Both the position numbers and the translations under genes were made by a program. A stretch of 64,000 nt of DNA from Sphingomonas sanxanigenens DSM 19645 = NX02. GTDB taxonomy: Bacteria; Pseudomonadota; Alphaproteobacteria; Sphingomonadales; Sphingomonadaceae. The notes beneath the pieces were generated by a model. That model did not search any database, was not told where the DNA came from, and saw only the letters and a list, made by a program, of their open reading frames with translations. Each line of letters starts with the position of its first letter. The stretch's first letter is position 1. Below are positions 33,694 to 57,129 of this stretch, piece by piece. Location: assembly GCF_000512205.2 (NCBI RefSeq), contig NZ_CP006644.1, forward strand, positions 4,540,501 to 4,604,500, given 5' to 3'.

Positions 33694-33769
33694 GCCCGGG
33701 TAGCTCAGTTGGTAGAGCATGCGACTGAAAATCGCAGTGTCGGCGGTTCGACTCCGTCCCCGGGCACCA
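33694..33769 (+). tRNA. tRNA-Phe (GAA)
   Basis: 76-nt cloverleaf: acceptor GCCCGGG/CCCGGGC, D-arm GCTC/GAGC, anticodon stem TGCGA/TCGCA with loop CTGAAAA (anticodon GAA at 33727-33729), T-loop TTCGACT, and an encoded CCA at 33767-33769. Confidence 0.97.
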
Positions 33770-35562: not shown

Positions 35563-36855
35563 CTACAGGGTCGCGGTAGCGCCCTCACGGCTGCACAGAG
35601 AGGGGTCCTTCCATCTGGTGTCCGCCCGTTCGACGAACGGACGGTACTCGGTTCCCGTCTTGATGACGGCATGCGCAACGCGCGCCATTTTGGCGGTGAG
35701 CGCGGTCATCGCCTTGCGACGGCGATCGGGGTCGTTGGGATACCCGGCGACATAGCGCCCCAGCTTATCGCGGAAGCTGTTGTCGCGCTGGCGGATCGCG
35801 ACCTGCGTCGCCATCCAGAATGTACGCCGCAACCGGGCATTGCCATACTTTGACAGCTTGGTCCGACCGCGGAACATACCGGACTGACAGGTAGCGAGGT
35901 CGAGGCCACAGAACTTGAGAAACTGGCGATGATGGCTGAAGCGGCGCAGATCACCGGCCTCGGCAAGGATCGTCAGGGCATTGATCGGTCCGATGCCTGG
36001 GATCATCCGCAGAAGCTGATAATCGCGGTTCGCGGCCAGCGCGTCATGGGCGATCCGCTCAATCTCATTGCGTTGTTGGATCAGGGTACGAGCCTGAGCG
36101 ACGACCATGCGGAACATCGTGATCGCAGTGGAATCCTCGTCAATCGGCAGCGCGATCGATGCAGAGGCGGTCTCATAGATATCGTTGACTACCCGGGCCT
36201 TGGAGACCTTGCGACCGATCAACGGCCAGGCCTGTTCAGTGAAGGCTTCGCGGCCGATCGAGATGATGCTCCCCGGCGTCGGGAAACGTTCGATCAGCGC
36301 CAGGAACCAGTCAGACCGGCTGTTGCCGGCGAAACGCTCGATCTCCGGGAAATACAGCGGCAGGTAGTGGGTCAGGATCCTATGCCAGGCCTGGGTCTTC
36401 GCCTTTGATATGGCTTCATGCGTCTTCGACATCTCCTGCAGATCGTTGATACCGGCTGCCAGCGGATCGACATAGCGCTGGGTCGCACCGATCCTCAACA
36501 TATGCAGGATCACTTGCGCGTCCTTGGAATCGTTCTTGTCCCAGCCATTGTGCAGCGCTTCGCGCGTCCGGGCCAAGGCGACCGACGAGATCAGGCGCAA
36601 CTCAAACCCGGCGGACAGCAATCGATGCGCCAGCGTGCGGTGATAGTTGCCAGTCGCTTCGAAACCGACAATCACGGGCTTGCCAATGATCGTCAGATCG
36701 TCGGCCAGGCGATCATAATCCGCCTTCGTCGCCATCACTGTCATGCGGCGCCGGCGGCCGCCCTCCGGTCGTTCAAGCAGAACTTCCTGGCGGTGCTTGG
36801 ACATATCGATGGCTACCAGCACGGCGTCGGCGGGAGTAGAACTGCGCTTGGTCAT
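35563..36855 (-). CDS. IS110-family transposase
   Basis: 430 aa. N-terminal DEDD_Tnp_IS110 RuvC-like domain with acidic residues in VLVAIDMSKHRQE, VIVGFEATGNYHRTLAHRL and NDSKDAQVILHML. C-terminal transposase_20 domain with MIPGIGPINALTILAEAGD, FCGLDLATCQSGMFRGRTKLSKYGNARLRRTFW (the Ser-containing region). Full length, no frameshift, so probably active. These enzymes use an element-encoded bridge RNA to choose target and donor. Confidence 0.93.
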   Translation of the reverse strand: MTKRSSTPADAVLVAIDMSKHRQEVLLERPEGGRRRRMTVMATKADYDRLADDLTIIGKPVIVGFEATGNYHRTLAHRLLSAGFELRLISSVALARTREALHNGWDKNDSKDAQVILHMLRIGATQRYVDPLAAGINDLQEMSKTHEAISKAKTQAWHRILTHYLPLYFPEIERFAGNSRSDWFLALIERFPTPGSIISIGREAFTEQAWPLIGRKVSKARVVNDIYETASASIALPIDEDSTAITMFRMVVAQARTLIQQRNEIERIAHDALAANRDYQLLRMIPGIGPINALTILAEAGDLRRFSHHRQFLKFCGLDLATCQSGMFRGRTKLSKYGNARLRRTFWMATQVAIRQRDNSFRDKLGRYVAGYPNDPDRRRKAMTALTAKMARVAHAVIKTGTEYRPFVERADTRWKDPSLCSREGATATL

Positions 36856-37483: not shown

Positions 37484-38059
37484 CTAGCTCGGCACCAGCC
37501 GCCGGCTGACCAGCACCGCCGGATCGTCGGCATGCTTGAACACCTTCGCAAGCGCCCGGCTGCGCCGCTCGATGCGCGCGCGGTGCTTGTCCACATAGTC
37601 GGTCGCCCAGCCCTCCAGCAGCGCGAGGTCGTGCTCGATCGCCTTGATCGCCCGGCCCTTGCTGTGCGAGTTGGTCGCGAGTGATCCCGCCTCGCCGAGC
37701 CGGTACGCCGCCTTGTCCCGTCGATAATATCGCCATGCCACCTCGGTCTCGATGGCACGCGATCGATATTCCACCCAGCGGGCGAGCGGCGTGATGGTGT
37801 TGGTGAAGGTCGCCGGCAGCAGCCCGATCGGGATCGCGAACATGACGCCGATCCAGCCCCAGAAATAGTAACCGGTCGCCACCGCGAGGATCAGCGCCGG
37901 CACCCATATCATCGCCCGCTTGAAGACCTCGAAATCCTCCTGCGCATCGACCGCGCCGGCGCAGGGGATCCCGTGATTGATGACGATCCAGAACAGGTTG
38001 TTGGACGCGTTGGCGCTGTGGCGGGCCTTCACCCAGGTGGGCGGGAAATAGGAAATCAT
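37484..38059 (-). CDS. Prophage membrane protein, last gene of the lysis block
   Basis: 191 aa. Two hydrophobic segments (MIWVPALILAVATGYYFWG and IGVMFAIPIGLLPATFTNTI) and a charged C-terminal helix. The ATG at 38059 overlaps the preceding stop (ATGA), which excludes the longer frame. Function unknown; not a recognised holin. Confidence 0.7.
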   Translation of the reverse strand: MISYFPPTWVKARHSANASNNLFWIVINHGIPCAGAVDAQEDFEVFKRAMIWVPALILAVATGYYFWGWIGVMFAIPIGLLPATFTNTITPLARWVEYRSRAIETEVAWRYYRRDKAAYRLGEAGSLATNSHSKGRAIKAIEHDLALLEGWATDYVDKHRARIERRSRALAKVFKHADDPAVLVSRRLVPS

Positions 38060-38364
38060 TCCGACACCTTCGTGCAGATCGCCAGCGCCGCGGCCGCGCG
38101 ATCGCCATAGCCCCCAGGGCCCGCCCATTCGGCCAGCCGCGCGCCGAGCAGCGCGGCCAGCGCCGCAGCATCGGCGGGAAGCGGGCGCTCGAGCGGCGCC
38201 GGGCGCACGGGTGGAGTGACGGGGCACGGCCGCTGCACCTCGCGCACGACCTCCACCGTCTCGACGCGGATGCCGGGCGAAGGCACAGTAGCGCAGCCGG
38301 TTAACAGACGGAACGTGACAACAAAGGCGGCAGCGAAAGCGGCCATTCTGATAACAGTGCGCAT
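38056..38364 (-). CDS. o-spanin (Rz1-like outer-membrane lipoprotein)
   Basis: 102 aa. Signal peptide with lipobox LLTGC (Cys about residue 22) and a Pro-rich mature part (CPVTPPVRPAPLERPLP). Paired with the upstream Rz-like gene (TGATG overlap) in the usual i-spanin/o-spanin order. Acts in the last step of lysis by fusing inner and outer membranes. Confidence 0.75.
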   Translation of the reverse strand: MRTVIRMAAFAAAFVVTFRLLTGCATVPSPGIRVETVEVVREVQRPCPVTPPVRPAPLERPLPADAAALAALLGARLAEWAGPGGYGDRAAAALAICTKVSE

Positions 38365-38795
38365 CACAGCCCCTCCAGTTCCTTGAGCAGCGCCTTCGAC
38401 GCCTCGCACCCCGGCCGCGCCGGCTGCCGCGCGAGCGCCTTCAGCCGTTCGACCTGGTCGGCCGTCGACTGCCACCGCTCATCCGCCGCGGCGACATCGG
38501 CCGCCGCCTGCGCCTTCGCCTGTTCCAGCGCCGCCGCCCGCGCCTTGGCGTCGGCGTTCTGTCGCTCGATCGAGATCTGCAGCGTATGGACGGACGCGAG
38601 CGTCACCGCGTGCGCCGCCCGCTCGCCGGCGAGCTCTTCCTGCCGCTTGCCGGCCTTCTCCTCCCACGCCGCCGCGTCGCGTCGCGCGAGCCACAGCGCG
38701 CCGACCAGCGCCAGCACGACGGCGCCGGCGGCGAAGGCCTTCCAGTGGCGCATGGCGAAGCTGCCTGCGCCGGCGAGGATGGTCCCGGGGATCAT
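38364..38795 (-). CDS. i-spanin (Rz-like inner-membrane protein)
   Basis: 143 aa. N-terminal membrane anchor (FAAGAVVLALVGALWLAR) and a long coiled coil (EEKAGKRQEELAGERAAHAV ... ADVAAADERWQSTADQVERL). ATG at 38795 overlaps the preceding stop. Forms the envelope-spanning complex with the downstream lipoprotein. Confidence 0.75.
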   Translation of the reverse strand: MIPGTILAGAGSFAMRHWKAFAAGAVVLALVGALWLARRDAAAWEEKAGKRQEELAGERAAHAVTLASVHTLQISIERQNADAKARAAALEQAKAQAAADVAAADERWQSTADQVERLKALARQPARPGCEASKALLKELEGL

Positions 38796-39019
38796 GCCGT
38801 CACATGCTTCACGGCCCACATGACGGCTTCCTCCGTCTTCGTGCGGGCGATCGACAGTTCGCGACTGCTGCCGGTCTGTTCGATGAGGGCCAGCAGCGCG
38901 GCGCCGGCATCCTTGATCGCGACCATCTGCGCCTTCTCGCGCTCGCTCAGCACGCGATACTGGTGGCGCACGGCGTTGTTGGCAGTGCGGTCGTCACCTT
39001 CGCTCGATACGTGCGTCAT
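38792..39019 (-). CDS. Acb2/Tad1-like domain protein (candidate anti-CBASS/anti-Thoeris sponge)
   Basis: 75 aa: a variable N-terminus, then HQYRVLSEREKAQMVAIKDA and SSRELSIARTKTEEAVMWAV KHVT, the two helices that define the Acb2/Tad1-like domain. Known members form hexamers that sequester cyclic oligonucleotides or ADP-ribose-derived signals and block CBASS or Thoeris. It lies in the lysis block, ATGA-coupled to the i-spanin gene. The family call rests on motif memory; the ligand is unknown. Confidence 0.65.
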   Translation of the reverse strand: MTHVSSEGDDRTANNAVRHQYRVLSEREKAQMVAIKDAGAALLALIEQTGSSRELSIARTKTEEAVMWAVKHVTA

Positions 39020-39035: not shown

Positions 39036-39290
39036 TCATGGCTTCACCTGCTTTTCGACGATGGTTGCGTTGCGATCGGCCAGCTCGCCACCGCCCTTGG
39101 TCGCCGCATAGGCCCACGCCAGCACGCTGCCCGTCCATCCGGTGATGACGATCGCGGTGGCGAGGATCAGGAAGGCGTCGACGCGCAGCAGCGCCGGTTG
39201 GCAGATGATCGCGATCACGATGATCAGCGTCAGGCCATATTGGCCGATGCCGATCCAGCCGCGCGCGTCGGGCCAGCCGGGGCCGGTCAA
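39036..39290 (-). CDS. Small two-helix membrane protein (holin-like)
   Basis: 84 aa. Two hydrophobic segments (YGLTLIIVIAIICQPALL and FLILATAIVITGWTGSVLAW) with a charged tail (ELADRNATIVEKQVKP). The start is TTG at 39290, overlapping the preceding stop (TTGA). Could be a second holin or pinholin/antiholin. Confidence 0.6.
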   Translation of the reverse strand: MTGPGWPDARGWIGIGQYGLTLIIVIAIICQPALLRVDAFLILATAIVITGWTGSVLAWAYAATKGGGELADRNATIVEKQVKP

Positions 39291-39592
39291 CGATCCCACT
39301 CCGGCCACACCGCCTTGCCATCGCCGCCGGCCGCCACGAAGCCCTCGATATAGAAGATGATCTCGGTGCCCTTGGTCGCGCCGCAGTGCCGGCAGCGGAA
39401 CTTGGTCGGCAGCTTGCCCTCGATACGATCGACGACGTGGTGTGGCGCCGGGCAGTTGCGCCACGCCTCGCCGTTCGCCTTCACCTGGTCGAAGATCGAT
39501 TGGACTTCGCCTGGCGATATCCGGCCGCCCGACAGCTCGCTGAGAACCTTGCGGCCGTCATAGGTGCCGTCGGGGTTGCGGGCGCCCTTCAC
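39287..39592 (-). CDS. Small zinc-binding-like protein of the lysis block
   Basis: 101 aa. Cys47, His51/52, Cys67 and Cys70 (NCPAPHH ... FRCRHCG) could bind zinc. The GTG start at 39592 overlaps the endolysin stop (GTGA). Not recognised. Confidence 0.6.
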   Translation of the reverse strand: MKGARNPDGTYDGRKVLSELSGGRISPGEVQSIFDQVKANGEAWRNCPAPHHVVDRIEGKLPTKFRCRHCGATKGTEIIFYIEGFVAAGGDGKAVWPEWDR

Positions 39593-40350
39593 AGAAGCGC
39601 CTTCCACGTCTTCGGGCCGACGATGCCATCGGCACCCAGCCCGTTCGCTTTCTGGAAGGCGATCACCGCCGCCTCGGTCGCCGGGCCGAACACGCCATCG
39701 GCGCTGATGCCGAGCTCATCCTGCAGCTTGCGCACATCATCGCCGCGGTCGCCGCGCTTCAGCATCGCCAGCACCGGATCAACCGTCGCCACGGGCGCGG
39801 CCGGCGGCGTCGTGCCGGCCATCGCCGCGGACACCCGCGAGCGGAAAGCCTGCATGTCGAACGACGGATCGATCTTGCGCCCGCGCGGCGTCGCATATTC
39901 CTTGTGGCCGGCGCACATCGTCACCGGCGCACCGATGTGCTTGAGGATGGCTGCGCAGCCGCGGGCATAGGCGTCCAGCTGGATCTCGGGCCACGGCTCC
40001 GATCCGTCGCCGCGATTCTCCGCCTCGATGCCGATCAGGCTCGAGTTGCCGGCGGTCACACCCTGCCAGGCGCCGGCGCCCGCATGGTTCGCGCGGCCCG
40101 CCGCCACGACATAGAAGGTGCCGTCGCGGCCGAGCACCAACTGAGAGAGCGGACCACGCAGATCGGGCCGGCCATTCTCGACCAGCGAAAGGCTGGGCGC
40201 ATTGCCCTTGAGCCCGCCGGCGGTGTGGTGGCACAGCACCCCGCGCACGGTGCCGAGCTCGCCCGTGCCGCGGGTCTTCCAGGCGGGCCGCTCTTCCACC
40301 TTCAGGCCGGCGCCGCGCAGCACGTCGGCAAGCCATGTCGCATTGGGCAT
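39589..40350 (-). CDS. Endolysin: N-acetylmuramoyl-L-alanine amidase with peptidoglycan-binding domain
   Basis: 253 aa. Amidase_2 domain with the zinc-site region VLCHHTAGG and IGIEAENRG ... CAGHKEYATPRGRKIDPSFD. C-terminal PG_binding_1 repeat (LKRGDRGDDVRKLQDELGIS ... FQKANGLGADGIVGPKTW). No signal peptide, so export to the wall depends on the holin. ATG 40350 with GGAGCG upstream is preferred over 40362. Confidence 0.92.
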   Translation of the reverse strand: MPNATWLADVLRGAGLKVEERPAWKTRGTGELGTVRGVLCHHTAGGLKGNAPSLSLVENGRPDLRGPLSQLVLGRDGTFYVVAAGRANHAGAGAWQGVTAGNSSLIGIEAENRGDGSEPWPEIQLDAYARGCAAILKHIGAPVTMCAGHKEYATPRGRKIDPSFDMQAFRSRVSAAMAGTTPPAAPVATVDPVLAMLKRGDRGDDVRKLQDELGISADGVFGPATEAAVIAFQKANGLGADGIVGPKTWKALL

Positions 40351-40487
40351 CACACGCTCCATTCATCAGGGGGCATCAGCGGCGCGAGGCCGCACAGGAT
40401 CCGCTCGCGATCGGTCTGCGCCGGGCGCGGCTCGTCGGCGGCGTCGGCATCGGCCGGCCGCTCGACGGGCTCGGGATCGGGGGTCAT
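40350..40487 (-). CDS. Small acidic phage protein (45 aa)
   Basis: MTPDPEPVERPADADAADEP start, one Cys, ending MPPDEWSV. It bridges holin and endolysin with overlaps at both ends (ATGA upstream, TGATG downstream). Too small for family assignment. Confidence 0.6.
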   Translation of the reverse strand: MTPDPEPVERPADADAADEPRPAQTDRERILCGLAPLMPPDEWSV

Positions 40488-40933
40488 GTCAGGTCGTCGA
40501 GATCTGGCCGCGGGCGGAGCGCGGCATATTCGGTCGGCGCCCGGCCGCTCAGCGTGTCATCGATGATGGCCTGCCCGCTGAGCTCGGTCTGCACTTCCTG
40601 CCGTACAGCGCCCCGCACGCGTTCCGACACGGCCACGACGTCGTTCTCGACTTGGCGGAAGAAGTGCTCGGTCAGCAGCTTGACCAGTCGATCGGCGCCG
40701 ACCGCGGAGAATGCCGCCAGCAGCGCCGCCGCCTCCCCGCTCGCGCCGAACTGGTTGGCGATGTGGTAGGCGATCAGCGCGACCATCGGCCACAGCAGCA
40801 CGTCCGCGAGCACCAGCGAGGGCTTGATGACCTCCCCGCGCTTGAGCAGCAGCGCGTATTTGGCGAGGAAGCCGAACGACAGCCCGATCAGAATCCATCC
40901 ATATTTTGCGAAGGCCGCTTCGACCCAAGCCAT
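40484..40933 (-). CDS. Putative holin
   Basis: 149 aa. Three hydrophobic segments (WILIGLSFGFLAKYALLL, LVLADVLLWPMVALIAYHI, AALLAAFSAVGADRLVKLL), then an acidic C-terminal domain. The chosen ATG at 40933 has AGGGGG 5 nt upstream. The same frame stays open to 41215 (GTGATG junction with the fibre gene), so a longer form with an extra 80-90 hydrophilic residues is possible. It sits directly before the endolysin, as holins do. Confidence 0.72.
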   Translation of the reverse strand: MAWVEAAFAKYGWILIGLSFGFLAKYALLLKRGEVIKPSLVLADVLLWPMVALIAYHIANQFGASGEAAALLAAFSAVGADRLVKLLTEHFFRQVENDVVAVSERVRGAVRQEVQTELSGQAIIDDTLSGRAPTEYAALRPRPDLDDLT

Positions 40934-41029
40934 TGCGACCCCCTGTTCTTTGTGGGTGGTGGTGTGAACGGCGGCGCTCATGCGTCCGCCATTGCGGTGG
41001 TGATCACAGCGCCGTATTCTGTTGAGACT

Positions 41030-41212
41030 ATGCAAGCTCGGTTCCCCCTTTTCTCTGCCGTTTTCCACGCGCCGCTGCGCATATTGCGCGGCGGCATCGC
41101 CGAGGTCCGGCTTGAAAGAGCGAGAGATCGCGACGGCCTTTGCATCAGGTGCGGCGATCGGCGCGAAGAAGGCATCATGTGCCACTCGTGCACCGCCCGC
41201 GAGTTCATCTAG
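41030..41212 (+). CDS. Possible zinc-ribbon ORF opposite the late operon
   Basis: 60 codons from an ATG at 41030, ending CIRCGDRREEGIMCHSCTAR with a well-formed CxxC...CxxC. Third-position G+C looks higher (about 75%) than in the antisense frame of the 41215-starting reading (about 62%). It has no strong RBS and lies between the fibre and holin genes on the opposite strand. It may be a moron or an accident of antisense reading. Confidence 0.3.
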   Translation: MQARFPLFSAVFHAPLRILRGGIAEVRLERARDRDGLCIRCGDRREEGIMCHSCTAREFI

Positions 41213-41214
41213 CA

Positions 41215-44172
41215 TCACAGCGCCACCTCCGGCGGCGACGACATGCTAATCAGACTGCTGTCGATCCACGTCGACAGATAGACTTGACCGCCCGAGCCGA
41301 GGTTGCGGCCCGAGGCCCAGTCACCCCAATAGCCTAAGTTATAGAAAAACGGCGTGATACCGCCGACCACACCTGTGGCGCCCAGGTCCTTGGGGGTGTC
41401 TGTCGTTCCGGTCGCGCAAAAGGCATCGCGGTTGGCTTGCACCGAGAAATCGATGCTATCTGCAGCCATCCACAGCGACTTGATGTCGACGTTGGTCAGA
41501 GGCAGTGCCGTCGAGCTGAACAGACTGAGGATGTTGTTGAGCGCAAGATCCGCGTCGGCAGTGGGCGTCGTGGTCGCCACGGCCTTATTATTCGCCGCAG
41601 CCTGCATCCGCTGCACGCCCGTCGTCGTGTCGATCGTGAAGAAATACATGTTGTAGCGATCGGGATAGTCGGCAACTGCCGGCGTTACAGAACCAATTGA
41701 GGCTACGCTGTCGTAGCCGATCCAGCGGAAGACGTTGCCATTGAGGACGTTCAGCCAGGTGGTGGGGCCGAGCAGGCCTCCGGATGCGGCAGGAAGGAAG
41801 CGGGCACAGACAACGATCGTGATCTTCTTGCCGTTCGACACGCCATCCCAACCCGGCGTGCCGAGCGCCTGCATGCCCCCCCCGGTGAAGCGCGCGCCGC
41901 CGTTGGCCGGATTGGTGCCGGCCATGCCGCGAACCAGCGTCCGCCGGCCGATATGATGGCCGTAATGGTGACGGGCCTCGATGAAATAGTCGCGTACCTC
42001 GAAATTGATCGCGCCGGCGCCGCGCTGCAACTCGCCGGTCGACGTCAGCCGCACCACGTCATCGGAAGGCGCTCGGAACAGCGCCACATGTTTCGGCGTG
42101 CCTGCGATCCGCGCCGGAGCGATGGTCGCCGCGACGGCGTCCGAGGATCGGATGGGAAACACGATCCGCTCAGGCTGCACATAGGGCTGGCCACGTTCCA
42201 TGCACAGCACCAGCCGCGCCTTCTCGCGGGCACCCGGCTCCGCGATCGGGTCGTCGTAGTGGGTGCCGTCGGCCATGATCGAAAGCGGCATGCCGCCCAA
42301 GGCGAGGCTATCGAGGTCGGCCTTGCTACGGTTCGACACATACGGGTGAAGCGCCGCGTAATGGTCCCAGAAATTGACGCCGAATGCCGTGCGCATCAGT
42401 CGCGCCAGCTTGCTGATCGTCCCGAAATTGCGCGTACCGACGGTCCCGGTTTGACCGCCCCAGAACATCTTGCGCGAATGCGGGATCGCGTCGAACGCCT
42501 CCTGGTTGACGGTCATGATCGCGGCCGTCTGATCCGACGTGGTGACGTTCGGCTGATTGCTCGGATTGAGGTTGTTCGTATCGAGCCCGACGATCGCCGA
42601 TTCCTGCTTCTGCGTCGTCGACCATGCGATGATGCGGTCGCGGATCTCCTGCGCGGTCTGGCCCGACTTGCCCTTGTTGTTCACGGCGGCTTTCAACCAG
42701 GTGATCATCAGGTCAGAGGTACGATCCCAAATGCCATCAGCATCGCCCTGGCCGCCGGAAATAGGCCCGATCTGGGTCTCTTCCGTCGTGCTGTCGCCGG
42801 TGACATTGATGCGCCCGACCGCGACCCAATAGTAATTGGCGACCGTCGGATAGGTCGGCGGCGCATTGCCGGCCGTGCTGGTCGGCGCGCGATAAAGCCA
42901 CACATAGCCCTGATCGGTGCAGCACTGGTTGACCAGAGCAACGCCGACCTCGCCGCGTGAGTAGCTCGTCGCTGGATTGTAGGCGAGCGCCACCTCATAG
43001 GCTTCGCCTGGCGCGGTCAGCGTGGCGGCGGGCCATGGCGTCTGAGCAAGTGGGTAAACCTGAAGGCTCGTCGCCAGCGCGGCATCGTTGAGCCGCTGCA
43101 CCTCCATCAGGGCCTGCACCTCAGCGATCTGCGCAGCCTTCAAGGACTTGGCATCGATCGACGCGATATAATCCTGCAGGTCGAGCACATCGGTGAGCGC
43201 CTTGGTGCCGGCGCGCAGCGCGATCTTCTGCGTCGCAAGGTGGTTTGACCATGTGCCGGTACCGGTGGTCTGATGGTACCAGCCGTAGAAGCGCTGACGC
43301 CCGTCGCCCGTTTTGTCGACATAGCCATAGCCATAGCGCAAACGCGCGTTGCTGGCGTCGTAGACATCGATCGCGACGGCATAGGTTTTGCCTGCGGCTG
43401 TAACCATCGGCGCCGCCAAGCTGGTCGGGAAACGCGCAGTCGCCAGCGCCGAGGCGCCGGGAGTGAGACCCGCATCGGCCGGCGTGATGCTGATCGTCTC
43501 GACCACCGTCCACGCGCCACCGCTAGCCGGAGATCCGGCTGCTGCGACGTGCGGCGGCGCCGTGTTGATGCTCGCATGGGCCGTGTTGGCCACATAGACA
43601 TAGGCCTTGATGAGCGTCGCTGTCGCATCGACGATCATGTCGGCGAACCAAGCGTCGATCACCAGCCCGGCCGCGATGTCGGCACCGACATCTATCGCAG
43701 CGGCCACATATGCCCGGTTGGCACTGATCGCGAGCGTCGTCGCGGAGGGCTGTCCGGAAAGAACGGTGTAAGAGTCCGCAGTTCCCAGCAACGCATCGAC
43801 GCGCGAGGTCAGCAGCGGGCCGTTAAGCTGAGAGCCGAGAACCTCAATCGCTGCGCGGTCGGCAGCAGAAAGACTTGCCCACTCCTTCGCCGATTTCGTC
43901 CCAGTACCGCCAGGCTCAGCGCCTTCGCTTTCCGCCCATTCTTCCGCCTTGTCGGCCGCCTCCCCAGCGCGGTTTGCCTCGAAGCGCGCACCCCGGTCGG
44001 TCGGCTCATCTGCTCCGGGAATCGGGTCGTCGGTGTCGCTCACAGCGTAAGAGCGGGCGAGGTCAGCGCTGCCACCTGCCTCTTCTACTTTTTCGTCGAT
44101 GAGATCGAGATCGCCGGGCAGTAGCCCCGGACCGCGAAGCCCGCGCACCTGCACTTTGCGAATGTCGGCCAT
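41215..44172 (-). CDS. Tail fibre/spike with internal SGNH-hydrolase domain
   Basis: 985 aa. The N-terminal 120 residues resemble fibre adaptor regions (SAKEWASLSAADRAA). Residues about 455-640 match the SGNH set: GDSTTE (Ser461), AAVNNKGKSG, GLDTNN (Asn533/534) and ADGTHYDD (Asp635/His638). The C-terminal 330 residues look like a LamG-type beta sandwich (TPGWDGVSNGKKITIVVCAR). Probably host-binding with esterase activity on an acetylated surface sugar. Confidence 0.8.
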   Translation of the reverse strand: MADIRKVQVRGLRGPGLLPGDLDLIDEKVEEAGGSADLARSYAVSDTDDPIPGADEPTDRGARFEANRAGEAADKAEEWAESEGAEPGGTGTKSAKEWASLSAADRAAIEVLGSQLNGPLLTSRVDALLGTADSYTVLSGQPSATTLAISANRAYVAAAIDVGADIAAGLVIDAWFADMIVDATATLIKAYVYVANTAHASINTAPPHVAAAGSPASGGAWTVVETISITPADAGLTPGASALATARFPTSLAAPMVTAAGKTYAVAIDVYDASNARLRYGYGYVDKTGDGRQRFYGWYHQTTGTGTWSNHLATQKIALRAGTKALTDVLDLQDYIASIDAKSLKAAQIAEVQALMEVQRLNDAALATSLQVYPLAQTPWPAATLTAPGEAYEVALAYNPATSYSRGEVGVALVNQCCTDQGYVWLYRAPTSTAGNAPPTYPTVANYYWVAVGRINVTGDSTTEETQIGPISGGQGDADGIWDRTSDLMITWLKAAVNNKGKSGQTAQEIRDRIIAWSTTQKQESAIVGLDTNNLNPSNQPNVTTSDQTAAIMTVNQEAFDAIPHSRKMFWGGQTGTVGTRNFGTISKLARLMRTAFGVNFWDHYAALHPYVSNRSKADLDSLALGGMPLSIMADGTHYDDPIAEPGAREKARLVLCMERGQPYVQPERIVFPIRSSDAVAATIAPARIAGTPKHVALFRAPSDDVVRLTSTGELQRGAGAINFEVRDYFIEARHHYGHHIGRRTLVRGMAGTNPANGGARFTGGGMQALGTPGWDGVSNGKKITIVVCARFLPAASGGLLGPTTWLNVLNGNVFRWIGYDSVASIGSVTPAVADYPDRYNMYFFTIDTTTGVQRMQAAANNKAVATTTPTADADLALNNILSLFSSTALPLTNVDIKSLWMAADSIDFSVQANRDAFCATGTTDTPKDLGATGVVGGITPFFYNLGYWGDWASGRNLGSGGQVYLSTWIDSSLISMSSPPEVAL

Positions 44173-54472: not shown

Positions 54473-54750
54473 GCGAGCGCCGGATCGCGATAGCGCCACA
54501 GGATGGCCTTCACGCCCGACGGAATTTCTGCCGTCTCGCGGTCGGCGAACAGGGCGCCGAGCATCAGCAGCACAGCCGATTTCACGAGCGCCGGCGCGGT
54601 TTCCGCGGTCCAACCGTGCTCAGGGCGCTTGATGTAATCGACGATAATGTCGGACGCGCCCTCGCGCTTGAGATCGATATCGGCGTCCTCATCGTTGCTG
54701 AGGATCCGCAGATGCGCCTTCGCCTCGGCGAGCGTGACCAGCGCGACCAT
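54469..54750 (-). CDS. Head-tail connector (gp6-like)
   Basis: 93 aa: VTLAEAKAHLRILSNDEDAD, the DNA-packaging/HK97 gp6 signature, followed by SAVLLMLGALFADRETAE. Located between the repeat protein and head closure genes. Confidence 0.85.
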   Translation of the reverse strand: MVALVTLAEAKAHLRILSNDEDADIDLKREGASDIIVDYIKRPEHGWTAETAPALVKSAVLLMLGALFADRETAEIPSGVKAILWRYRDPALA

Positions 54751-55766
54751 CAGGCCACCTTGTCCTTACCGTCACGGCCGCGCTTCACGGCCAGCCGGAA
54801 GCCGCTGTCCGCGGTGTCGGGCTTGGCGTCTGTACCGCGCTGCGCGATCCAGTAACTGCCCGCCCACGTCACGCCGTCGCCGGCCTCATAGGCGCGCTCC
54901 GCCTGCCACACGCCGCGGTCGATCACGACCGGGAACGACAACTGATAGGTGCGCTCGGTATCGCCGGCCTTCATCGCGAAGCGGATGGTGCGGCCATCCT
55001 CCATGACCTCGGCGGTGAAGTCGTCCAGCGACATCGCGTCGCGCCCGTCCTTCGGCACGGGAATCGCGGCGACCATCTCGCGCAGCTGCTGCTCGAGCGC
55101 GGCCATGTCCGCATCGCGCCCCACCACCTGCCCGAGCGTGTGGATCGTGCCGTCGGTCATGGTGGCGACGCACTCGCCGGCCCGGTTAACGAACATCGCG
55201 GCCAGGCCGATGCCGTCCTTCGGTGTCGGGATCGCCGCAACGGCCGCGCGCACCTGCTCATCGAGCAGCGGCCGGACGTCGTCCACCGTCACACTGGTGC
55301 CGTCCTGCGGCGCCGGGATCGCCGCCACCGCCGCGCGCACCTGCTCGTCGATCAGCGGGCGAACATCATCCACCGTCACGCTGGCGCCGTCCTGCGGCGC
55401 CGGGATGGCAGAGACCGCCGTGCGCACCTGCTCGTCGATCGCCGCGCGGATCGCCTCCATATCGGGCTGCACCGGTGAGGCCGGCGCCGGAAGCGCGGCG
55501 AGCACGCGGGATACGATCTGGTCGGCGGTGGGGATGCCCTCACGCAGCTGGTCGACATCGACCGCGATCAGCCCGCGACGTTCGATCTCGCGGACGACGG
55601 CAGCGTCGACCAGGCTGCCGATCTCGTCGGCGCCCGGGGCCGCTGCGCGCCGCTGCAGCTCCGCCTCGAGGCGCTTGATGGTCTCGATGAGCGGCGCGAC
55701 TTCCTTCGCGAGGAACTCGCGGACGATCGCCGCGGTCGCATCGGCAAGCGCCTTGGTATCAAGCAT
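54750..55766 (-). CDS. Repeat-containing fibre-like protein with CBM5/12-like end
   Basis: 338 aa. Helical N-terminus (residues 1-95), three copies of a 29-aa repeat beginning DEQVRAAVAAIPAPQDG (111-185), and a C-terminal segment VWQAERAYEAGDGVTWAGSY with Trp residues as in chitin/CBM5-12 modules. Lies between portal and connector genes. Could be a head decoration or whisker fibre; not a standard member of the cassette. Confidence 0.7.
   Translation of the reverse strand: MLDTKALADATAAIVREFLAKEVAPLIETIKRLEAELQRRAAAPGADEIGSLVDAAVVREIERRGLIAVDVDQLREGIPTADQIVSRVLAALPAPASPVQPDMEAIRAAIDEQVRTAVSAIPAPQDGASVTVDDVRPLIDEQVRAAVAAIPAPQDGTSVTVDDVRPLLDEQVRAAVAAIPTPKDGIGLAAMFVNRAGECVATMTDGTIHTLGQVVGRDADMAALEQQLREMVAAIPVPKDGRDAMSLDDFTAEVMEDGRTIRFAMKAGDTERTYQLSFPVVIDRGVWQAERAYEAGDGVTWAGSYWIAQRGTDAKPDTADSGFRLAVKRGRDGKDKVA
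55212..55436 (-). repeat. Tandem 87-bp coding repeats
   Basis: Three consecutive units encoding the 29-aa motif DEQVRxAVxAIPxPxDG(x)12 (the third incomplete). In frame and near-identical, so copy number may vary between related phages by recombination or slippage. Confidence 0.7.
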
Positions 55767-57129
55767 GCAGCGCCTCCCGCAGGTCTTTCTCGAACAGCGC
55801 GATCGCCGCGCGCCGCGCATTATCGTTGGCGGCCTGCGCCTCCGGCCCATCGTCGCGCTCTGCCGGCGCGTTCGCCGCCGGCGCGGTCGCGAACGGATCT
55901 TCGCGCGCGTCACGGCGCGCCAGCGCGGCGAGGCTGTAGTTCTGCTGCTGCAGATAGACGGCAGCACCGCCCTCGGTCGGCTTCTTGTCCAGCTTCGCGC
56001 GCTGCTCGTCGATCGTCAGGATGCCGGCCGATTCCTTCAGCACCTGCATCTGCGTCACGCTGTCCATGCGCAGCAGGTTGTCGATGTCGAACTCGGTGCC
56101 CAGCCGGTCGCCCGTCGCCAGCCCCTCATCCAGACACAGCTCGATCGCCTCGATGTGCGACTGAAGACACTGAGAATAATATTCGGTGTTGAGCGCCTGC
56201 ACGTTGTTGTAGCTCGGCATGGTGCCGACGCCGATCTTGTACGGCGGCACGTGATAGGTCGAACAAACGACCTCGGCCGACCACTTCAGCTGCTCGATCA
56301 GCTGCGCGTCGGTCGCCTTGACCGACATCGCCTCGAACTTGAGCCCGTCGCCCAACACGGCAACCTTGCCGGCATTCTCGCCGGTGAAGTTCGCGTCCCA
56401 ATAGGCCTTCAGCCGATCCGCAGTTTCGTCCGCGATAGCTCCGGGTGCCGTGAGCACACCCCCCGGCCGCGCACCGTTCTGGAACAGCCGCGCGCTCGCG
56501 TTCTGGATCGAGATCCCCTGCGTCGCAGCCAGGCCGTTCGCGTAGATCGGCGACAGGCCGACCAGCGGATGGAAGAAACAATTGAACCGGTCGTGGATGA
56601 TCTCGCTGGCCGGTACGACCAGCTCACCCTCGAGGCCGACGAGGTGGTCGGTCTTCAGCTCGTAATAGACATCGCCATTGTTGGCGACCATCGGCCGGGC
56701 CCGCCCGGGGTCCAGAACGTGCAGCTTGATGACGACACCGCGCGCGTCGCGCTGCTTGAGCACATAGGTGTTGCCGGCCTGCAACTTGCTCAGCACCCAG
56801 TTCTCGAAGAACTGGATGCGATTCTGGAAGCCGTTCGGCTTGCGCAGCACCGGCGAATATGCGGGGTTGGTCACCTCGCTCCAGATGCCGTTATTGTCCT
56901 TCGCCACCAACTTGATGCGCAGCTTGGCAATGTCGCTGGCGATCAGCGTCTGACAGGCGAAAACCGCATGGTGCGAGAGGACGGTGTCGACCTTCACCTC
57001 GATGTTGCGCTGCCAAGCACCGGTGAAGGCCTCACGAACGATCGGCCACCACCCATTGCGGCTGTCGACGTTCGCCAGCTGACCTGGCGCCGCCTTCTCG
57101 CGCGTGATGGTGAAGCCGAGGATGCGCAT
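55759..57129 (-). CDS. HK97-family portal protein
   Basis: 456 aa. Contains VFACQTLIASDIAKLRIKLV, NPAYSPVLRKPNGFQNRIQF FENW, SASARLFQNGARPGGV (phage portal patch) and MDSVTQMQVLKESAGILTID EQR. The ATG at 57129 overlaps the upstream stop (TGATG). Forms the dodecameric DNA gate at the capsid vertex. Confidence 0.93.
   Translation of the reverse strand: MRILGFTITREKAAPGQLANVDSRNGWWPIVREAFTGAWQRNIEVKVDTVLSHHAVFACQTLIASDIAKLRIKLVAKDNNGIWSEVTNPAYSPVLRKPNGFQNRIQFFENWVLSKLQAGNTYVLKQRDARGVVIKLHVLDPGRARPMVANNGDVYYELKTDHLVGLEGELVVPASEIIHDRFNCFFHPLVGLSPIYANGLAATQGISIQNASARLFQNGARPGGVLTAPGAIADETADRLKAYWDANFTGENAGKVAVLGDGLKFEAMSVKATDAQLIEQLKWSAEVVCSTYHVPPYKIGVGTMPSYNNVQALNTEYYSQCLQSHIEAIELCLDEGLATGDRLGTEFDIDNLLRMDSVTQMQVLKESAGILTIDEQRAKLDKKPTEGGAAVYLQQQNYSLAALARRDAREDPFATAPAANAPAERDDGPEAQAANDNARRAAIALFEKDLREALHA

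Follow-up and report, generated by a model that had tools for sequence, protein, structure and literature searches.

A prophage gene of Sphingomonas sanxanigenens encodes an Acb2 family member predicted to act as a CBASS-directed nucleotide sponge

A prophage of Sphingomonas sanxanigenens DSM 19645 = NX02 carries a gene for a 75-aa protein that, by its match to the family model PF24729, its predicted fold and the conservation of its residues, is a member of the Acb2 family, proteins used by phages to soak up bacterial alarm nucleotides. We put the probability that it is an Acb2-type nucleotide sponge, directed against CBASS by prediction, at roughly three in four. The gene lies in the window, by which we mean the whole stretch of 64,000 nucleotides that was analyzed (contig NZ_CP006644.1, positions 4,540,501 to 4,604,500, forward strand). 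Between 37 and 64 kb the window holds a prophage, whose genes for terminase, portal, major head protein, tape measure and tail fibre share one strand. A first-pass annotation had labeled the protein as Acb2/Tad1-like and as a candidate anti-defence protein encoded in a lysis/spanin block; the Acb2 part of the label is borne out by the HMM, the fold and the pocket residues, whereas the Tad1 part is not, the beta-sheet domain of Tad1 being missing.

The open reading frame (Table 1) was found where it had been annotated, on the minus strand, and its coordinates are exact in the sequence. Its ATG is preceded by a GGAG-type ribosome-binding site (GATCGAAGGAGAAGGCAAATG), and its TGA and the ATG with which the downstream gene begins at 38795 share a 4-nt ATGA. 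The HMM score and the 122 homologous frames described below establish it as a genuine gene, beyond a chance match, and it is present in a single copy in the host genome. The coupling to the inner-membrane spanin gene that had been claimed stands as far as the overlap is concerned, while the identity of the partner is weak. In the same way, the endolysin part of the proposed lysis/spanin block is firm and the spanin part is weaker, resting on marginal PHROG matches together with the transmembrane helix and coiled coil of one protein and the lipobox of the other (Table 1). The small two-TM protein encoded upstream gave no Pfam or PHROG family match.

Table 1. The acb2-like gene and its neighbors at the lysis end of the prophage (window coordinates)
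Feature	Coordinates	Strand	Evidence
Probable outer-membrane spanin, lipobox LLTGC, Pro-rich	38056..38364	-	phrog_456 Rz-like spanin E=0.0086; sequence
Probable inner-membrane spanin, one TM helix and coiled coil; start overlaps the acb2-like stop by 4 nt	38364..38795	-	sequence; PHROG Rz-like E=0.1 only
acb2-like gene, 75 aa, PF24729 hairpin at residues 21-74	38792..39019	-	HMM, AlphaFold, alignment
Small two-TM membrane protein, 16 nt upstream of the acb2-like gene; start tentative	39036..39287	-	sequence
106-aa protein with CxxC pair, phrog_9844 (function not known for the phrog)	39287..39607	-	PHROG
Endolysin, amidase and peptidoglycan-binding domain	39589..40362	-	Amidase_2 3.9e-19; phrog_880 8e-61
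Holin-like region; true start probably internal	40484..41218	-	phrog_6384 matches residues 96-193

Elsewhere in the window, an ORF after the portal gene (54750-55967) contains repeats like PQDGTSVTVDDVRPLIDEQVRAAVAAIP; about 209 nt of it are shared with the end of the portal gene, and its real start is probably internal. An IS110-like transposase, recognized by eye (35563-36855), adjoins the lysis end of the prophage, and a tRNA-Phe near the same end (33694-33769) is a possible integration site.

A search with the family HMM PF24729 (Acb2_Tad1_hairpin) gave 69.4 bits (E=2.9e-19; residues 21-74, profile positions 2-57 of 58) against a curated cut-off of 27 bits, confirming the family that had been proposed. 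With the same model, the proven sponges T4 Vs.4 and PaP2 p26 scored 70.3 and 65.3 bits, respectively. Profile-profile comparison with four Acb2 proteins covered the whole hairpin with a probability of 97.8% (E=9e-13). When the PDB sequences were searched with a profile of 57 relatives, the first nine matches were p26/Acb2, Acb2 homolog 43, Vs.4 and Tad1; a profile is needed at this distance, as phmmer with the single sequence returned a weak match only (E=0.4). Neither PADLOC nor NCBIfam assigned a name to the protein.

The AlphaFold model is all-helical and without strands, with helices at residues 10-16, 26-49 and 53-74 (mean pLDDT 85). The last two form a hairpin with pLDDT above 90 and correspond to the helix pair that had been read from the sequence. 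The Acb2 protomer consists of one short and two long antiparallel helices (PMC12043709; PMC10419184), and this layout is matched by the model, in which the N-terminal antiparallel beta-sheet domain of Tad1 was sought and is absent. The three top structural matches (VIA) were 7uq2, which is T4 Vs.4 (Z 6.8, rmsd 2.3 Å over 60 residues, 33% identity), then 8h2x and 8h2j, both Acb2; a Z of 6-7 is within the range that helical hairpins give, and the best Foldseek E-value of 0.17 is not significant alone for so small a helical hairpin. The structure scores are modest because the protein is a small hairpin, and the weight of the argument rests on the agreement of sequence and fold rather than on these scores alone.

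K26 of p26 is presumably a residue of the dinucleotide pocket, and R67 belongs to what we take to be the cyclic-trinucleotide site. By alignment, K36 of the 75-aa protein corresponds to p26 K26 (T4 K23) and R53 to p26 R67, a position held by Arg in Tad1 and by Asp in T4, while Y21 corresponds to T4 Y8 and p26 Y11, and T60 to T4 T68 and p26 T74. Among the relatives, K36 is kept in 122/122, Y21 and R53 each in 121/122 and T60 in 112/122, counts that are partly biased, since some homologs were gathered by patterns overlapping the counted residues. In T4 Acb2, activity was lost in the Y8A mutant (PMC12657218; PMC12657230), and T68M decreased binding and weakened function (PMC12657230). T4 F82 stacks on the bound dinucleotide (PMC12657218); an aromatic stacking residue at this position was looked for in the 75-aa protein and the 122 relatives, and Thr was found instead (T74; 122/122). 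As p26, a proven Acb2, is also without the Phe and carries Ala, this replacement does not exclude Acb2 membership, and an aromatic of the T4 F82 type is not a general Acb2 requirement. Of the aligned binding-pocket residues, those at Y21, K36 and T60 are kept, and the one at the F82 position is altered.

Viral and genome contigs supplied the 122 distinct homologous frames. All but a few carry the N-terminal signature SxSDxRTxNNxxRHxYRxLSxxEK, which is absent from p26 and T4. The genome records of these relatives come nearly all from Alphaproteobacteria, the few exceptions being mainly metagenome bins; in the phage collection, the isolated or complete carriers are Dunaliella viridis virus SI2, Sinorhizobium phage Aussie and a podovirus from Manatee Spring. 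The known sponges of coliphage and Pseudomonas phage are thereby extended to a large, mostly alphaproteobacterial phage branch, in which we found no characterized member. As the N-terminal motif is unlike p26 and T4, the ligand may differ, and the signature raises the biochemical question of which nucleotide this branch binds and hence which defence it opposes. A tentative proposal, which we hold to be rather unlikely, is that the branch is a distinct Acb2 subfamily in which R11, N14, N15 and R18 together with T74 build a pocket with a novel ligand preference; if true, this would suggest that a cyclic-nucleotide signal, CBASS-like or of another kind, is common among alphaproteobacteria.

Several members of the collection have features of their own. 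At L048:4546-5199 and L071:4998-5666, the hairpin continues in frame into a membrane-associated domain of about 140 aa, downstream of a lysozyme-like gene; this domain is holin-like by eye, gave no family match, and has a homolog at locus L028 that is a separate gene downstream of the sponge gene. At L078:4989-5714, the hairpin is joined to a stretch resembling a coiled coil and to a domain that is weakly Ig-like/Hoc-like, which hints at a possible virion-attached version. Dunaliella viridis virus SI2 (L082, HQ332136.1), deposited as a green-alga virus, carries ERF, endolysin, holin and sponge genes and seems to be a phage of some associated bacterium.

Relatives had been said to lie near structural and lysis genes. 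Head genes, portal being the commonest, and lysis genes do recur beside them, but most neighbors are unrelated and lysis is one of many settings. We scanned 113 upstream and 106 downstream genes with a simple home-made gene caller (some neighbors are possibly spurious, and the PHROG tallies are firmer); the 113 upstream neighbors fell into 87 sequence clusters, the largest made up of 13 portal proteins, and after the portal gene those for head maturation protease or head morphogenesis often come next. Locus L002 (IMG/VR), which represents this provirus at its lysis end with 100% identity, is the only one sharing the whole lysis block. In the closely related loci, a portal gene stands upstream (L004 and L005, 88%) or a terminase gene precedes the sponge gene (L003, 92%), in Sinorhizobium phage Aussie the sponge gene sits between head-tail adaptor and stopper genes, and in the Manatee Spring podovirus it is near recT. 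Lysis neighbors recur independently in SI2 (endolysin upstream, holin nearby downstream), L028, L068 and L123. Conserved synteny with the lysis genes of the window was rejected, as beyond L002 just weak endolysin-domain matches appeared, at two loci. With its mostly unrelated neighbors the gene behaves as a mobile accessory gene, and the way its place changes from phage to phage is in keeping with an anti-defence accessory, with late modules favored. Its recurrence in head or lysis modules points to late expression, a matter relevant to the timing of CBASS sensing of infection. Late expression may suit a sponge, because phages deleted for acb2 escape CBASS via major-capsid mutations (PMC10419184).

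No CBASS synthase was found in the host genome with the SMODS profile; the lack of CBASS in a lysogen is not evidence against a sponge role. Among 250 genomes of the same family, PF24729 was above cut-off in 6 and SMODS in 27, so that potential targets are commoner among these relatives than the sponge. A search of the host genome for Thoeris yielded two large TIR proteins only, neither with the usual form of ThsB. A TIR-domain protein encoded on the second contig of that genome (L148:895-2253) resembles PADLOC PDC-S66, bSEFIR and ThsB and is a possible defence gene.

A sponge of the same fold might have a main ligand unlike that of the characterized Acb2 proteins, such as another cyclic oligonucleotide, with the pocket remodeled by R11, N14, N15, R18 and T74. 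This is suggested by the near-invariant N-terminal motif that p26 and T4 do not have and by the invariant T74, while the retained Tyr and Thr contact positions and K36 imply that a nucleotide pocket persists. We nevertheless consider it unlikely: p26 binds 3',3'-cGAMP with Ala at the F82 position, so that the change need not alter specificity, and the dinucleotide pocket of Acb2 already includes the N-terminal helix and loop. A mainly anti-Thoeris role, with gcADPR sequestered as by Tad1, would agree with the C-terminal helix, which resembles that of Tad1 (SRENACALTHVEEALMW), and with a host TIR-domain protein of partial ThsB similarity, but the gcADPR pocket of Tad1 uses loops of its N-terminal beta-sheet domain (PMC12043709), which the all-helical model is without, and such a role appears highly improbable. 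The absence of this domain makes CBASS-type cyclic di- or trinucleotides likelier ligands than the gcADPR of Thoeris, and CBASS inhibition is likelier than Thoeris inhibition for this protein.

There is also a slim chance that the hairpin oligomer has been reused, without nucleotide binding, as an accessory of lysis or virion assembly. In several phages the gene does lie among lysis or head genes, and the rare fusions to a membrane or Ig-like domain would make sense in that setting; its upstream genes are nevertheless too diverse for a functional part of the lysis or head machinery, and the reported nucleotide-contact residues are conserved.

We therefore favor the Acb2-type, CBASS-directed sponge. 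If it behaves like Acb2, the protein, probably made from a late lysis operon, would form a compact hexamer. Between head-to-head protomers, Y21, K36 and T60 together with the N-terminal segment would form pockets for cyclic dinucleotides, and R53 may serve to bind cyclic trinucleotides at the threefold ends. Free alarm nucleotide would be lowered below the level needed by CBASS effectors, and the infected cell could live long enough for virions to mature.

Among the known systems, Tad1 (7uav, 8kbf, 8smd) shares with the 75-aa protein the C-terminal hairpin and the signature SRExxxAxTxxEEAxMW, and differs in the N-terminal beta-sheet domain that forms its gcADPR pocket (PMC12043709). Acb2 homolog 43 (9ptq) is likewise a short chain, of 76 residues, with a REKSVxKTKxEEAMxxA helix and a profile E-value of 0.004, but its N-terminus is too short for the N-terminal motif of the branch. 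T4 Vs.4 (Acb2, 7uq2) has in common the conserved Y8 and T68 and the C-terminal helix IAKTKxxEAxMWA; its F82 is Thr here, and at the R53/R67 position it carries Asp in place of the Arg found in this branch and in p26. The p26 protein of PaP2/PaMx33 (Acb2; 8h2j, 8h2x) is longer (93 aa versus 75 aa), the loop between the long helices being much shorter here, and does not have the extra N-terminal SxSDxRTxNNxxRH. Although identity to p26 is about 20-27%, the two proteins share the PF24729 hairpin, with a short N-terminal and two long helices, and the Y11, K26, R67 and T74 positions of p26 are kept as Y21, K36, R53 and T60.
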